64,000 nt of DNA, from assembly GCA_004292755.1 (NCBI GenBank), contig RDXE01000034.1, forward strand, positions 1-64,000. Reading direction: 5' to 3'. The notes under the pieces are model-generated. The model was not told the DNA's origin and did no database searches. It saw only the letters and a list, made by a program, of their open reading frames with translations. Each line of letters starts with the position of its first letter. Position 1 is the first letter of the stretch. This stretch comes from Alphaproteobacteria bacterium. Its GTDB lineage: Bacteria > Pseudomonadota > Alphaproteobacteria > Elsterales > Elsteraceae. The translations under genes were made by a program, and so were the position numbers. Shown piece after piece: positions 23,081 through 28,350 of the stretch.

Positions 23081-23153
23081 TCGCGGGGGTCAGCGTTCGC
23101 TGGAGGTTGGGCCAGTCGGCATTCCACCGGCGCGACCTCCCGGCGCGCCCCCC

Positions 23154-23308
23154 CGGCGCGACGTCACCGCCGACACCGGCCGCACTGTCAGCAGGCCAAC
23201 GAATGTCGTGGCGCTTCTAAGCGACGCGGCTGAAGAGCGCGCGGCCCACGATGCGGGCATCGGCTTGGCACGGGATCGGCACCACGGAAATCTCAAGTAG
23301 TTCCTGGT
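23154..23308 (-). pseudogene. Broken second copy of the prohead-protease linker region
   Basis: Read on the minus strand this gives QELLEISVVPIPCQADARIV, then GRALFSRVA, a TAG, KRHDIRWPAD and a degraded Gly-rich end. It matches the protease-muramidase gene at about 25390-25609, but lacks 63 bases (21 codons) present there between the two GR(A/S)L-like points. It has one stop where the intact gene has Glu. It has no N-terminal or catalytic part. This is the debris of a duplicated or displaced protease gene. Confidence 0.85.
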
Positions 23309-23436: not shown

Positions 23437-24363
23437 TTACTCAGATCGCCGTTCTTTTGGTCGAGGTCTGCAGATATTATGCATGTGAGCAATCGGATGA
23501 GCTGTCAGAGGGGCATCTGGAGCCAGCCGCGTGACTTGAATGATTGATTGATTTAGGCAATCAGGGCTCAATGGTTTGTGAACACTCTTTGATTCCTCCG
23601 ATACTGACACAATCATATCGCCAATTCCATCTCCGTCAAAGTCACCAAAGGCAACTAAGTAGGCTCCAAATATCGTAACCGAAGCATTTGTGCGATCCGC
23701 GAGAGACAATCTGATAGTATATCGAAACATCAGTCGCCCATAATCCTGTGGAAGATCGACCAGATGAGCGCCAAATGGCCACAAATCAACAAATGTCATT
23801 TGATCTGGCCGATTTTTAGACGGTATACTATTCAATCTGTTTATCATCGAATCGGATAGTCGCTGCGTCATCAACGGCACAGTTTTTATATATTCAAAAA
23901 ACGCTCTTTGGTAGTCCATGAAATTAAAATTTGGACTCTTTAGGGCAATTTGCGTCATATCGGAATCGCAAAAGGTATATGTATATAAATCCACCCCCCG
24001 TGTATCTACTTCCATCCGCTGACTGCCGCGTATCTCAAATAACTCTTTGCATGTTGAGACAGTTTTCCAGCCACTTTTCGTTCTGACGCGGATCTCTGGC
24101 AACTTTCGGGAGGAAGAATTTCGTATCTGTAGAAGTTCATCACCTTCATAATCTTGATTTTTTAATACTCCTGGACTGTATGTCTTCATCTTGATAAACC
24201 TAGCGTCAAGCCATTCTTGATTAAGCTCCTTAAGCGTCGCTGCCCGAAGATCGCTATCTTTTAACGCAATCTGTGGCTGGTCTTGTGTCATCTGACCTGC
24301 CACTGTGACTGGAAAGCCGAATGTGAGCATGAATGCCAAAGCAATTTTCCTAGATTTGGACAC
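23437..24363 (-). CDS. Exported protein of unknown function, candidate immunity protein
   Basis: The 308-residue protein starts at a GTG (24363) with GAGGGG seven bases upstream. It has a signal peptide (SRKIALAFMLTFGFPVTVAGQ) and a globular domain ending with the calcium-loop-like VAFGDFDGDGIGDMIVSVSE, as seen in FG-GAP-type proteins. Base composition is clearly lower in GC than the neighbours, a sign of transfer. It lies directly downstream of the muramidase-fusion gene on the same strand. A periplasmic location beside a peptidoglycan-degrading domain suggests an immunity or inhibitor role, but no known inhibitor family is recognised, so this is inference. Confidence 0.65.
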   Translation of the reverse strand: MSKSRKIALAFMLTFGFPVTVAGQMTQDQPQIALKDSDLRAATLKELNQEWLDARFIKMKTYSPGVLKNQDYEGDELLQIRNSSSRKLPEIRVRTKSGWKTVSTCKELFEIRGSQRMEVDTRGVDLYTYTFCDSDMTQIALKSPNFNFMDYQRAFFEYIKTVPLMTQRLSDSMINRLNSIPSKNRPDQMTFVDLWPFGAHLVDLPQDYGRLMFRYTIRLSLADRTNASVTIFGAYLVAFGDFDGDGIGDMIVSVSEESKSVHKPLSPDCLNQSIIQVTRLAPDAPLTAHPIAHMHNICRPRPKERRSE

Positions 24364-24455
24364 CGCTCTACCCCTCGGGTGTTGATGCCAGAATTGCAGT
24401 TACTCAGTATGGTAATTGGTACTCGGTATTGCGGCCCGCTTCAACGGGCGAGGAG

Positions 24456-24487
24456 TCACATCTGACCTGCAACTAGGCCAGATGTGA
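24456..24487. repeat. Nine-base inverted repeat TCACATCTG/CAGATGTGA
   Basis: The arms at 24456-24464 and 24479-24487 are perfect complements with a 14-base loop, extendable by one G-C pair. It lies in the 283-base gap between the fusion gene and the exported-protein gene. It could be a transcription pause, an attenuator or a mobile-element end; there is no T-run. Confidence 0.5.
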
Positions 24488-24548
24488 CCGTGGCAGCGCC
24501 CGTCTGTAGATGATGCGCACTCCCCTGCCGCGGAAACAAGTCGGCGTC

Positions 24549-24646: not shown

Positions 24647-26080
24647 TTACTGATGGCGTCTCAGGTACGCTATTTCTTTCTCAAAGCGCTTAGGGTCAGA
24701 TTTGGCGCCCTCAAGCGCTTTAATCATTGCGCCTCTGTCGCCTGTTTTCACCGCTTCCCACAATCGTCTCACCTCGTCGTCTCTGTTGGTACTGGTCGCT
24801 CCAGTCGGTCCGACTCGCCACGCGAGTGACATGGCAATGGTTTGCATATCTGGAGGAAGTGACGTAAACGGTTTTCCGGTTTGGCGCTCATAATTCTTTG
24901 ACAAGATACCATAGTGATACTTTATTCTTGCGTCTGTTATCTCCATTATCTCTTCGTTTGACAAATTTAACTGCTCTCTATTCAATCTATCCCGAAGCGA
25001 TGGCTCTTTCTCCATTGTTTTTCCCACCCAAGGATCCAATTTGTTTTGCAGACCTTTGGAAAGTTCACCCAATTCGCCCTTCCCAAGCGCACCTAAATTG
25101 ATTCCTGGTCCAACGGTCACGCCATTTTTCCCTCCACCTGGGATATGCGGCCCTATGTTGAACTGGTTTTCGAGAAATCGAATCTGCTCCCAGTCGATGC
25201 TCCCTGTATCAGCACGCGGTGGCAGCCGGAGGCCTGGGTTGCCGGGCCCTCCAGAGGTAGGATCTCCGTCCTGAGCACCGCGACGGTTGGCCGGCGGAGA
25301 CGGAGGGGTCGTCCGAGAAGCAGGCGCCGGACTGGCAGTCGGTCTGCCGGTCTGAGCGGTGAGCGGCGTGGTTTGTCCACCACCTCCAACGCCCGGTGCG
25401 AATTGACCTCCGACGCCGTCGGGGCTGCCAGCAGGCCAACGGATGTCGTGGCGCTTTTCAACGACGCGGCTGAAGAGCGCGCGAGCGATACCGCGGCCAA
25501 TGTGCTGGGCCAACGCCAGCCGCGGCGAACGGGGGGAGAGCGAGCGGCCCACGATGCGGGCGTCGGGTTGGCACGGGATCGGCACCACGGAAATCTCAAG
25601 CAGTTCCTGGGTCAGGATGTCCTTGCCGCCTTTGCGCGTCGGCTCCGACGAGCGCACCCAGGTCAGCGGGCGGAAGCCAACCGACACGGCATTCAGATAG
25701 CCATCGGCAATCAGGCGGAACACTTGGTCCGCAAAGGGATATGTGGCCGCGTCGGCGAATTGCAGCACAGCTGTCAGCCGACCATTGCGCACGCTCACCT
25801 CCAGTGCCCGGCCGATCGGCGGGTCGCGGTCGCGGTGGGCGAACAGCACCACGGGGTTGCGGCGGTAGGCGTCCAACTGCCAGCCCTCGACCAGCACGCG
25901 GTCGCCTGCGCGGTCAATCAATTCGGTCGACGCCACCACGGCCACCGTGCGCCGGACCCGATCCACTGCACCGGCAGGCACTGTGGCGAGGCTGCGCAAC
26001 AGGCCGTTGGGGTGGTCGGTCTCGGGCAGGATAGCGGGAGAAGTGATGAACGGGCGCGTGCGGTCGGTCAGCGTGCTCAT
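24647..26080 (-). CDS. HK97-type prohead protease fused to a pesticin-like muramidase domain
   Basis: The 477-residue product begins at ATG 26080 with GGAG seven bases upstream. Residues of about 30-185 form a phage prohead protease: VVASTELIDRAGDRVLVEGW, NPVVLFAHRDRDPPIGRAL with the catalytic His, GYLNAVSVGFRPL with the nucleophile Ser, and LLEISVVPIPCQPDA. A linker (RWPAGSPDGVGGQFAPG, then Gly/Pro/Thr-rich) leads to a C-terminal domain of about 180 residues with FLENQF, NGVTVGPGINLGAL, LSNEEIMEI and FTSLPPDMQTIAMSLAWRVG. That domain resembles the pesticin C-terminal lysozyme fold (PF16754). The position matching pesticin Asp207 is Asn here, so activity is uncertain. The tail DNA is AT-richer than the protease half, suggesting a swapped module. 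Confidence 0.8.
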   Translation of the reverse strand: MSTLTDRTRPFITSPAILPETDHPNGLLRSLATVPAGAVDRVRRTVAVVASTELIDRAGDRVLVEGWQLDAYRRNPVVLFAHRDRDPPIGRALEVSVRNGRLTAVLQFADAATYPFADQVFRLIADGYLNAVSVGFRPLTWVRSSEPTRKGGKDILTQELLEISVVPIPCQPDARIVGRSLSPRSPRLALAQHIGRGIARALFSRVVEKRHDIRWPAGSPDGVGGQFAPGVGGGGQTTPLTAQTGRPTASPAPASRTTPPSPPANRRGAQDGDPTSGGPGNPGLRLPPRADTGSIDWEQIRFLENQFNIGPHIPGGGKNGVTVGPGINLGALGKGELGELSKGLQNKLDPWVGKTMEKEPSLRDRLNREQLNLSNEEIMEITDARIKYHYGILSKNYERQTGKPFTSLPPDMQTIAMSLAWRVGPTGATSTNRDDEVRRLWEAVKTGDRGAMIKALEGAKSDPKRFEKEIAYLRRHQ

Positions 26081-26112: not shown

Positions 26113-27522
26113 TTACCAAGCGTTCCAAGCCGCCACGGGGCGATCCGCATCGGCGAAGGCGAGCAGCAGGGCATCGGCGCGGTCGGGCGAGCGGCCAAGC
26201 TCCGCGCGCGCCGCGGCTTTGGCCTCCAAGGCAATCCGCCCGCGGCCATCAAGGCCCCAGCGCAGACGCGCCATCTCGGCGATCAAGCTGTCGTCATCGG
26301 GCAGGTCGAGGTCGCCTGCCTCCGCCCGCTCGCGCAGGCGCCACCACAACTCGGCCCGGCGATTGACAAAGCGGTCGCTGGCTTGGGCCGCCCGCGCGAC
26401 ATTGATGCCGGTCACCGGCAGCCCACTCGCGCGCAGCACATCGACCAGGCCAGCGCCAAGGCCGATCTCATCCACTTTGATCGCCGTGGCCGTTGTCTCC
26501 GCCATCGCGGTGCGCACCGCGGCCGCAAGACCGGGGATATCCAACCCGTGATGCACGCCAACAATGCGGCCCACGGCACCGCGGCGGACTGCGATCACGC
26601 TGGCGTCCGGGCCGAAGCGTGCGACATCGACGCCAAGTTCAATCGGCAGACCCGGCAGCAGAGCGGCTCGGCGCGCACGCTCCAACACCGCTGGCGCCAG
26701 TAGCGCATCGGCTGCGACATCGGGAAAGCGCCCGCGCACCTTGGCCTGCCACAGCGCCGAGCCCTCGCCCCAGCGCGCCGCCATCTCCTCTGCCCACAGG
26801 CGGGAGACTAGCAGCGGCGCCAATGCCTTCGGTACCACTTCGCCCGTGAAATCGGGTGTGGCATGGGCATCAATCGGCAACACGCACCAGCCACTCTCCT
26901 CCGCACAGACACCGGCGAAGGCAGACAGCGGGTCGTCGGGGTTACCAATTGCCAGAAAGCGCGCCTGCGGCGTGGTCAGCAGCGTCTCGGCGGCATCCCA
27001 CAGCGGTTTGGGAATGCCGCACGCCTCATCAAACACCACCAGCACATGGCGGGCGTGAATCCCCTGGAACGCTGTGCCATCGGTATCGGCCGGTTTGCGC
27101 CCGAACCCAACCAGACGGCGTCCGATCCGCCATTCGGTCTGGCTCAGCGTGCCGGGCAGGCGCCCGCGGGCATGGGCGCGTGCAATCTCCCGCCATAGGA
27201 TGGCCCGCACTTGTGCGAAGGTGGGGGCGGAGGTGACAACGAACACCTCATCGGCAGGCCGGGTTGCCACCCACCACGCCACGAGACGCGAGGCGAGGAA
27301 TGACTTGCCGGCCCCATGGCAAGATGGCACGGCCACCCGGCGCTGGTGCACCAAGCTGCGCGCAATCTCCTGCTGGCGCGACCACAGATGCTCCCGCAGC
27401 ACGGTGGTAACGAAGCCAACGGGATCGGTTGCCCAGCGGGTCAGACGCGGGTCGGCGTCGCCCCGCCGGTGACTCAAGGCCTGACGCAGCGTCGCGGCCA
27501 AGCGAGGCAGAGGATCGGTCAT
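26113..27522 (-). CDS. Phage terminase large subunit
   Basis: The 469-residue protein is a packaging ATPase-nuclease. The ATPase domain shows VAVPSCHGAGKSFLASR (Walker A), HVLVVFDEACGIP (Walker B with catalytic Glu) and LAIGNPDDPLSAF (coupling motif). The nuclease domain begins LPIELGVDVARFGPDAS, with the first acidic residue, KVDEIGLGAGLVD the second, and SPDRADALLLAFA the third. All motifs are intact. The start at 27522 has GGAG seven bases upstream; an ATG at 27588, overlapping the small-subunit stop, would add 22 residues. It lies 32 bases upstream of the protease gene, where a portal gene would be expected. Confidence 0.92.
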   Translation of the reverse strand: MTDPLPRLAATLRQALSHRRGDADPRLTRWATDPVGFVTTVLREHLWSRQQEIARSLVHQRRVAVPSCHGAGKSFLASRLVAWWVATRPADEVFVVTSAPTFAQVRAILWREIARAHARGRLPGTLSQTEWRIGRRLVGFGRKPADTDGTAFQGIHARHVLVVFDEACGIPKPLWDAAETLLTTPQARFLAIGNPDDPLSAFAGVCAEESGWCVLPIDAHATPDFTGEVVPKALAPLLVSRLWAEEMAARWGEGSALWQAKVRGRFPDVAADALLAPAVLERARRAALLPGLPIELGVDVARFGPDASVIAVRRGAVGRIVGVHHGLDIPGLAAAVRTAMAETTATAIKVDEIGLGAGLVDVLRASGLPVTGINVARAAQASDRFVNRRAELWWRLRERAEAGDLDLPDDDSLIAEMARLRWGLDGRGRIALEAKAAARAELGRSPDRADALLLAFADADRPVAAWNAW

Positions 27523-27584
27523 GCACAGGCTCCAATGACGCCAGAGAGCAGCAGTAGGAGAGAGGCGCGGCCCGCGGCCTCGGC

Positions 27585-28040
27585 TCATTCCTCCTCAGGC
27601 GGGGCGGTATCGCTTTGGGTGCCGCCGAGGGCGGTGATCAGCGCCTCCATCTCGGCGTCGGACAGGCGCAGGACGTCGCTCGGCTCTACGCCGCGCTTGG
27701 CCCGGAACATGCCAAGCTCGCGGCCCAGCAGTTCCAGCGCCTTCAAGGCGACCGACTCGCGCCCGCTACTGCCCGTCGCCCGACCCTTGCCCCGCCCTTT
27801 GGCCAGCGGCTCTTGCATCGCGCGTTCAAACACTGCGCGGAGCTGGGTCACCACCCAGGCGCGATTGACCTCCGTACCGCCGCGCAGTTCGCGCACGCGG
27901 GCACGAATGTCGGGGCGCGCAGCAAGGCGAGTCACGCCGGCCGCGGTGTAGCCGGTCCGTTCGGCAATGGCGGCATGGTCCAGCCCAGACGCAAGCGCCT
28001 CGGCCACCGCCTCGTGGCGTTGGTTGGTCAAGTCCGGCAT
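27585..28040 (-). CDS. Probable terminase small subunit
   Basis: The 151-residue protein starts MPDLTNQRHEAVAEALASG, followed by AAIAERTGYTAAGVTRLAARPDIRARV, a helix-turn-helix of the type used by terminase small subunits to bind the packaging site. The remainder is helical and charged (FERAMQEP, ALELLGRELGMFRA) and ends in an acidic tail. Its position directly upstream of the large subunit is the main support. The TGA at 27585 is overlapped by an in-frame ATG of the large-subunit frame. Confidence 0.72.
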   Translation of the reverse strand: MPDLTNQRHEAVAEALASGLDHAAIAERTGYTAAGVTRLAARPDIRARVRELRGGTEVNRAWVVTQLRAVFERAMQEPLAKGRGKGRATGSSGRESVALKALELLGRELGMFRAKRGVEPSDVLRLSDAEMEALITALGGTQSDTAPPEEE

Positions 28041-28350
28041 GGGAGGGTCACTTCGCTGACAAGGAGGCAGCAGGCCGTGGCCTTGTGGACCGTAGAGTCC
28101 AAGACCAACTGAGGCTGCGGGATACAAAGCGGGAGAATAGAAAAGCTCTAGCGATGCGCGCCGCGCTGTGTCAAGTCAAAACAGAACGAACCCTGAACAC
28201 TGGTGCCCAACTGCCAACCGTGACACCCCTGCGACACAAACAAGCGGCCATTCCGGTTGGCGTTATGGGCCGTGTTGTCCTAAACCCTGTCTGCGCCGCG
28301 GCGGCGAAAAGCCGCGGGCCATCTCTCCCCTGGTGAAAGGCATTCGTGCC
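28041..28350. other. Gap between prophage remnant and lpdA, with a GC-rich hairpin
   Basis: No gene is visible in these 310 bases. CCGCGGC (28296-28302) and GCCGCGG (28311-28317) form a seven-pair hairpin around GGCGAAAA, 33 bases before the lpdA start. It may affect lpdA mRNA or mark a site from the mobile element. The lpdA promoter is not evident. Confidence 0.45.

Follow-up and report, generated by a model that had tools for sequence, protein, structure and literature searches.

Domain organization of the protease-pesticin gene

We analyzed a 64,000-nucleotide (nt) stretch of DNA (the window), corresponding to positions 1 to 64,000 of contig RDXE01000034.1 from an alphaproteobacterium of the Elsteraceae (GenBank assembly GCA_004292755.1), which carries a gene combining a phage prohead protease with a domain related to the muramidase pesticin. 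The gene is a single minus-strand frame that runs from an ATG at 26080 to a TAA at 24647 and encodes 477 amino acids (aa) without internal stop or frame break. A preliminary description, made from the DNA alone, had placed it correctly at 24647–26080, leaving the strand unmentioned, and had proposed that one uninterrupted frame joins a prohead protease, a linker and a pesticin-like domain. The unbroken frame and the matches to PF04586 and PF16754 bear this out: protease, linker and pesticin-type muramidase domain are one protein.

The N-terminal part (residues 1–232; 25385..26080, minus strand), hereafter the carrier, belongs to the S78 (HK97-type) prohead proteases, as judged from a Pfam match to PF04586 (residues 77–177, E = 1.2e-6, 29 bits against a cut-off of 21), from PHROGs matches to head proteases (phrog_617, 3e-23; phrog_80, 3e-18) and from 45% identity to the head maturation protease of Komagataeibacter phage phiKM1. 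It ends in the motif WPAGSPDGVGGQFAPG (residues 215–230). By eye, His82 lies in a FAHRD motif and Ser133 in a VSVGF motif, in agreement with the earlier expectation that the likely catalytic residues of the protease are in place. No MuF domain was found in the protein with Pfam, PHROGs and further profile searches.

The carrier is followed by a linker (residues 233–292; 25205..25384, minus strand), which in translation is rich in Gly, Pro and Thr as previously described, and by the pesticin-like muramidase domain (residues 293–477 and the stop codon; 24647..25204, minus strand). Residues 316–424 match the Pesticin domain PF16754 with E = 1.2e-14 and 55 bits (curated cut-off 25.8), and residues 295–474 match phrog_24780 with 3.5e-7. 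A sequence search of the PDB reached pesticin weakly. A single-sequence AlphaFold2 model of residues 290–477 was of low confidence (pLDDT, the predicted local distance difference test score, 57); when it was used in Foldseek, nine pesticin chains ranked on top (best E 8e-3, probability 1.00) and T4 lysozymes lower. The significant PF16754 match and the Foldseek result thus uphold the proposed resemblance of the C-terminus to pesticin lysozyme.

Base composition changes along the gene. The G + C content (GC) is 0.68 in the carrier, 0.70 in the linker and 0.485 in the pesticin domain, and the corresponding values at third codon positions (GC3) are 0.80, 0.55 and 0.50. The suggestion that the C-terminal DNA is AT-richer, as if swapped in, therefore holds, with the fall from 0.68–0.70 to 0.485 located at the domain border.

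Active site of the pesticin-like domain

Pesticin requires E178, T201 and D207 (PMC9927483). When the protein was aligned with six further domains of the PF16754 type, E178 and T201 were found to be kept, as Glu304 and Thr322. The third column, equivalent to Asp207, holds Asp in all six other domains and Asn328 in the protein studied here (codon at 25097..25099, minus strand), as had been noticed before; the catalytic set is consequently incomplete. On this sequence evidence we assign the domain to the PF16754 family and make no claim that it is an active muramidase. A D-to-N change at the catalytic Asp was not found in the papers searched, in which loss of pesticin-like activity is known for D to A.

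A candidate immunity gene and a remnant of the carrier

Downstream of the fusion lies a minus-strand open reading frame for a 308-aa protein (23437..24363, GC 0.436), with an N-terminus, MSKSRKIALAFMLTFGFPVTVAG, that resembles a signal peptide by eye. The product is probably secreted, judging from this sequence, and is a candidate periplasmic immunity protein. Pfam yielded a weak FG-GAP match (E = 0.0011, below cut-off), no homologue was found in 385 alphaproteobacterial genomes, plasmids or viral contigs, and in a comparison the protein was unlike the neighbor genes of other PF16754 domains. A 14-nt inverted repeat is present at window positions 24455–24488, between the toxin and the candidate immunity gene, and a near copy of part of it occurs at 24289–24304, inside the latter.

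Further downstream, sequence alignment identified a degenerate duplicate of the 3' part of the carrier (23130..23308, minus strand), which reads LLEISVVPIPCQADARIVGRALFSRVA*KRHDIRWPADSAAGVGGD and contains an internal deletion and a stop. This remnant of about 0.18 kb corresponds to the carrier segment that begins at LLEISVVPIPCQ and extends to the GGQF motif, with one stretch of 81 nt at 91% identity and another of 92 nt at 84%; it lies 2.2 kb from the gene and is the only other match to the carrier in the genome. Its presence argues for a past exchange at the stretch where carrier meets tail, comprising the protease end and the GGQF motif. The order on the minus strand is therefore terminase small subunit (TerS), terminase large subunit (TerL), protease-pesticin gene, 308-aa gene and protease remnant, with host-type genes beyond. 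Toxin, AT-rich secreted-type gene and broken carrier copy point to the layout of polymorphic toxin loci. Together with the parallel portal-tail loci described below, the candidate immunity gene and the displaced protease remnant lead us to read the locus as a polymorphic toxin cassette and not as an isolated oddity of enzyme fusion; the preliminary description had mentioned none of the three.

The terminase-protease module

TerL (26113..27588, minus strand; phrog_2, 6.6e-32) is syntenic in a congener (genome G001), and TerS (27585..28127, minus strand, probable start ATG 28040; phrog_11494, 9.5e-9; phrog_51, 1.3e-7) has an orthologue there. In the congener lpd, TerS, TerL and the first protease residues follow in the same order up to a contig end (the protease start was recognized by eye in the raw sequence), so that TerS-TerL-protease beside lpd is kept in two species. 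The TerL proteins are 77% identical with a dN/dS (ratio of nonsynonymous to synonymous substitution rates) of 0.17, compared with 0.11 for lpd, and TerL is judged from these sequences to be under purifying selection. No portal or capsid gene was found within the window. The module is best read, from its sequence, as a domesticated remnant of a phage resembling a gene transfer agent (GTA); what bears on the GTA trait of vertically inherited, selected phage structural genes among host genes is the synteny at lpd, in two species only, and the TerL dN/dS. A TerL scan of genome contigs gave 18 loci, Elstera litoralis among them as a relative, and the four of these loci that were read showed no toxin tail on a protease.

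Portal loci with the same layout

Elsewhere in the genome (G000), a capsid gene and the N-terminus of a portal lie at the end of contig C38 (L059:1-2257). Contig C91 (L060:1-14188) starts with a portal C-terminus; RVPAGNPGGGRW and a linker rich in proline lead from it into an unknown tail, whose GC is lower, and a small gene (GC 0.46) and a portal remnant with a stop come next, followed by a connector gene, a tail terminator, a minor tail protein, a tape measure and fiber genes. We infer that the two contigs adjoin in the genome and were split at the repeated portal sequence. The head and tail genes look like a split, domesticated GTA-like module: capsid, tailed portal and a siphovirus-like tail gene set stand apart from TerS-TerL-protease, and the contig break falls inside the portal.

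In the congener, contig C159 holds two portal copies with different tails. Against a composite query from both species, one copy shows 97% identity and the other 95%; the two are about 90% alike over 494 aligned bases, linker included. A related small gene (54% identity) follows each portal copy; two more relatives come next, and then the connector gene of C91. The small genes, four in all and related at 54% down to about 30% identity, thus form an array directly before the conserved connector gene (L061:1-4921). The portal tails of both species matched no family, including no known toxin family, in profile searches, although one of them gave the impression of a BECR-type RNase. The small genes at the portals are without evident signal peptide, whereas the gene after the muramidase has one by eye, a contrast that fits cytosolic versus periplasmic targets.

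Polymorphic toxin loci typically show repeated carriers whose tails differ, together with small related genes in arrays (PMC3482391, PMC3967940). A conserved carrier with variable tails is seen here for the portal copies of both species, and the protease with its pesticin tail in one genome only; displaced carrier fragments are present as the protease remnant and the portal remnant.

PF16754 and S78 proteins in other genomes

The preliminary description had suggested looking for the same tail on other N-terminal modules, and one was found in the same family: in genome G005 (contig C33) a PF16754 protein with a different carrier adjoins a PAAR/DUF4123 gene, followed by a 366-aa gene (L043:4768-7972). 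By its sequence context this protein is likely a type VI secretion muramidase effector. Several other alphaproteobacterial PF16754 genes adjoin genes for predicted secreted or lipoprotein-like products.

PF04586 had about 130 matches in 109 of the 385 alphaproteobacterial genomes. In 20 further S78 regions, most with long frames, no recognizable toxin tail was found; by eye the tails were capsid-like, scaffold-like, short or undefined. Pfam scans of nine of these regions gave capsid domains in five and no further tail domain in four. Two of these four (L121 and L125) had long tails with no Pfam match, the former being similar by eye to the capsid-type tails of L132 and L136; L125 could still carry a toxin of an unknown kind. 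Among the matches listed from phage records, only the protease part was covered, at most about one-third of the protein, and none covered 80%. The C-terminal domain sequence had no match in phages, plasmids or viral contigs. The protease-pesticin fusion is therefore rare, seen in one genome. PADLOC returned nothing. In the open literature (subscription papers lay outside the search), prohead protease together with polymorphic toxin yielded only a reference-list entry or unrelated mentions, and MuF carriers and portal fusions were found.

A putative polymorphic toxin on a phage head protein

Taken together, the gene is probably a polymorphic toxin, part of a toxin/immunity cassette on the prohead protease of a domesticated GTA-like phage module. 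A tail-plus-immunity cassette would have recombined onto the protease carrier, leaving the broken carrier end behind. The protease part would bring the toxin into the prohead; such entry into particles is presumed from the behavior of prohead proteases in known phages. After assembly the toxin could be freed or ejected with the particle and, once in the periplasm of a target cell, could cut the peptidoglycan; the downstream secreted protein would shield kin there. The portal of the same module bears other tails with different small neighbor genes in the same layout. In this scheme we infer delivery by particles, which protein confers immunity, and that the domain is active despite Asn328. The full picture, a GTA-like particle armed with exchangeable antibacterial toxins on protease and portal that kills or poisons non-immune recipients and spares kin, is a tentative and rather doubtful extension.

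Several observations weigh against a toxin cassette. One is the Asn at the position of Asp207: PDB titles describe D207A pesticin as inactive and D867A removes the activity of VgrG3cp (PMC9927483). The immunity assignment rests solely on position, composition and a signal peptide recognized by eye, with neither a homologue nor a usable predicted fold. The survey of S78 proteins in the 385 genomes, with 20 regions inspected, found no second protease-toxin fusion, and in the congener only about the first 28 residues of the protease precede the contig end. That the module produces particles is a presumption.

Asn328 and the broken carrier copy alongside would also be expected of a decaying or inactive fusion, in which a cassette was captured by recombination, the catalytic Asp was lost and the locus is now a fossil. 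We regard this as improbable, as the long frame, the neighbor gene and the other two catalytic residues are intact, TerL shows purifying selection, and a lysozyme-like phage endolysin lacking the catalytic aspartate has been described (PMC5674055). Phages of Vibrio and Pelagibacter have PF16754-like domains as well, in some cases under a lysozyme annotation, so that an endolysin origin of the domain is possible. They lend some support to a virion-internal peptidoglycan hydrolase, a muramidase that would ride in the head on the protease and open the wall at DNA entry with no role as a weapon. Such an enzyme would not lead one to expect a secreted neighbor, a carrier remnant or varied portal tails with small neighbor genes, all of which are present, and we hold it to be somewhat less probable still. 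That an assembly chimera joined a prophage fragment to an unrelated gene is very hard to credit: the assembly is a draft in 95 contigs, and some of its breaks fall close to repeats of carrier sequence, but the gene lies inside a 101 kb contig and is coherent in frame, start and linker, and at a distance of 2.2 kb there is an independent remnant homologous to it.

Relation to known systems

As a polymorphic toxin, the protein is best read as a variant of the phage-capsid (MuF-type) toxin systems with new carriers. Toxins on MuF capsid proteins with immunity have been shown for Bxa and Apk2 (PMC5576092, PMC11699363), and like them the protein has a head protein as N-terminal carrier, a presumably variable C-terminal toxin and adjacent small gene(s). 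Unlike in those systems, MuF is replaced as carrier by an S78 prohead protease and, at the other locus of this genome, by the portal, and the module looks domesticated and is split across separate contigs. The PF16754 muramidase domain is shared with pesticin and VgrG3cp, and in VgrG3cp it likewise forms the C-terminal tail of a delivery protein, the immunity gene downstream encoding TsiV3cp (PMC9927483); here, receptor-binding and VgrG parts are absent, Asp is replaced by Asn, and the immunity candidate has no match. Orphan rhs fragments serve tail exchange (PMC3967940), and the displaced carrier fragment near toxin and neighbor gene recalls these orphan rhs-CT elements of the Rhs and contact-dependent growth inhibition (CDI) systems, with the differences that carrier and presumed delivery are phage head parts and that the remnant has no tail of its own.

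Protease-capsid fusions of phages and Elstera relatives (NF045541, phrog_617) carry the same protease type at the N-terminus, whereas the tail here is a muramidase and the capsid protein has a gene of its own, on a different contig. A head protein is likewise combined with an effector domain in polyvalent proteins where the portal is fused to PBECR or 2H domains (PMC5512222); those are regarded as phage effectors against the host, while the neighbor genes and carrier remnants described here suggest toxin/immunity exchange.

Phage-borne polymorphic toxins are known on MuF proteins, for which particle delivery is still a hypothesis. Entering the prohead is what a prohead protease is built for, and a toxin fused to it therefore has a direct, testable way into the particle; with the portal showing the same layout, head proteins in general may be able to carry toxins. 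Domesticated phage modules may then be retained because they serve competition, whether in addition to gene transfer or in its place. The protease with its exchanged tail, likely antidote gene and broken carrier copy suggests that antibacterial weapons of an exchangeable kind are carried on leftover parts of phages.

Additional observations

Two further observations come from the surveys. In the relatives G005 (contig C20), G007 (contig C13) and G008, argG is flanked by genes for a portal, a protease-capsid fusion and tail proteins, and TerL is about 5 kb off; this is another dispersed phage module, common to a genus. In a viral contig (L011:68-4699), a 1543-aa protein with a GHPFRGNQW motif is encoded just before a prohead protease, and its C-terminal stretch looks by eye like an ADP-ribosyltransferase.
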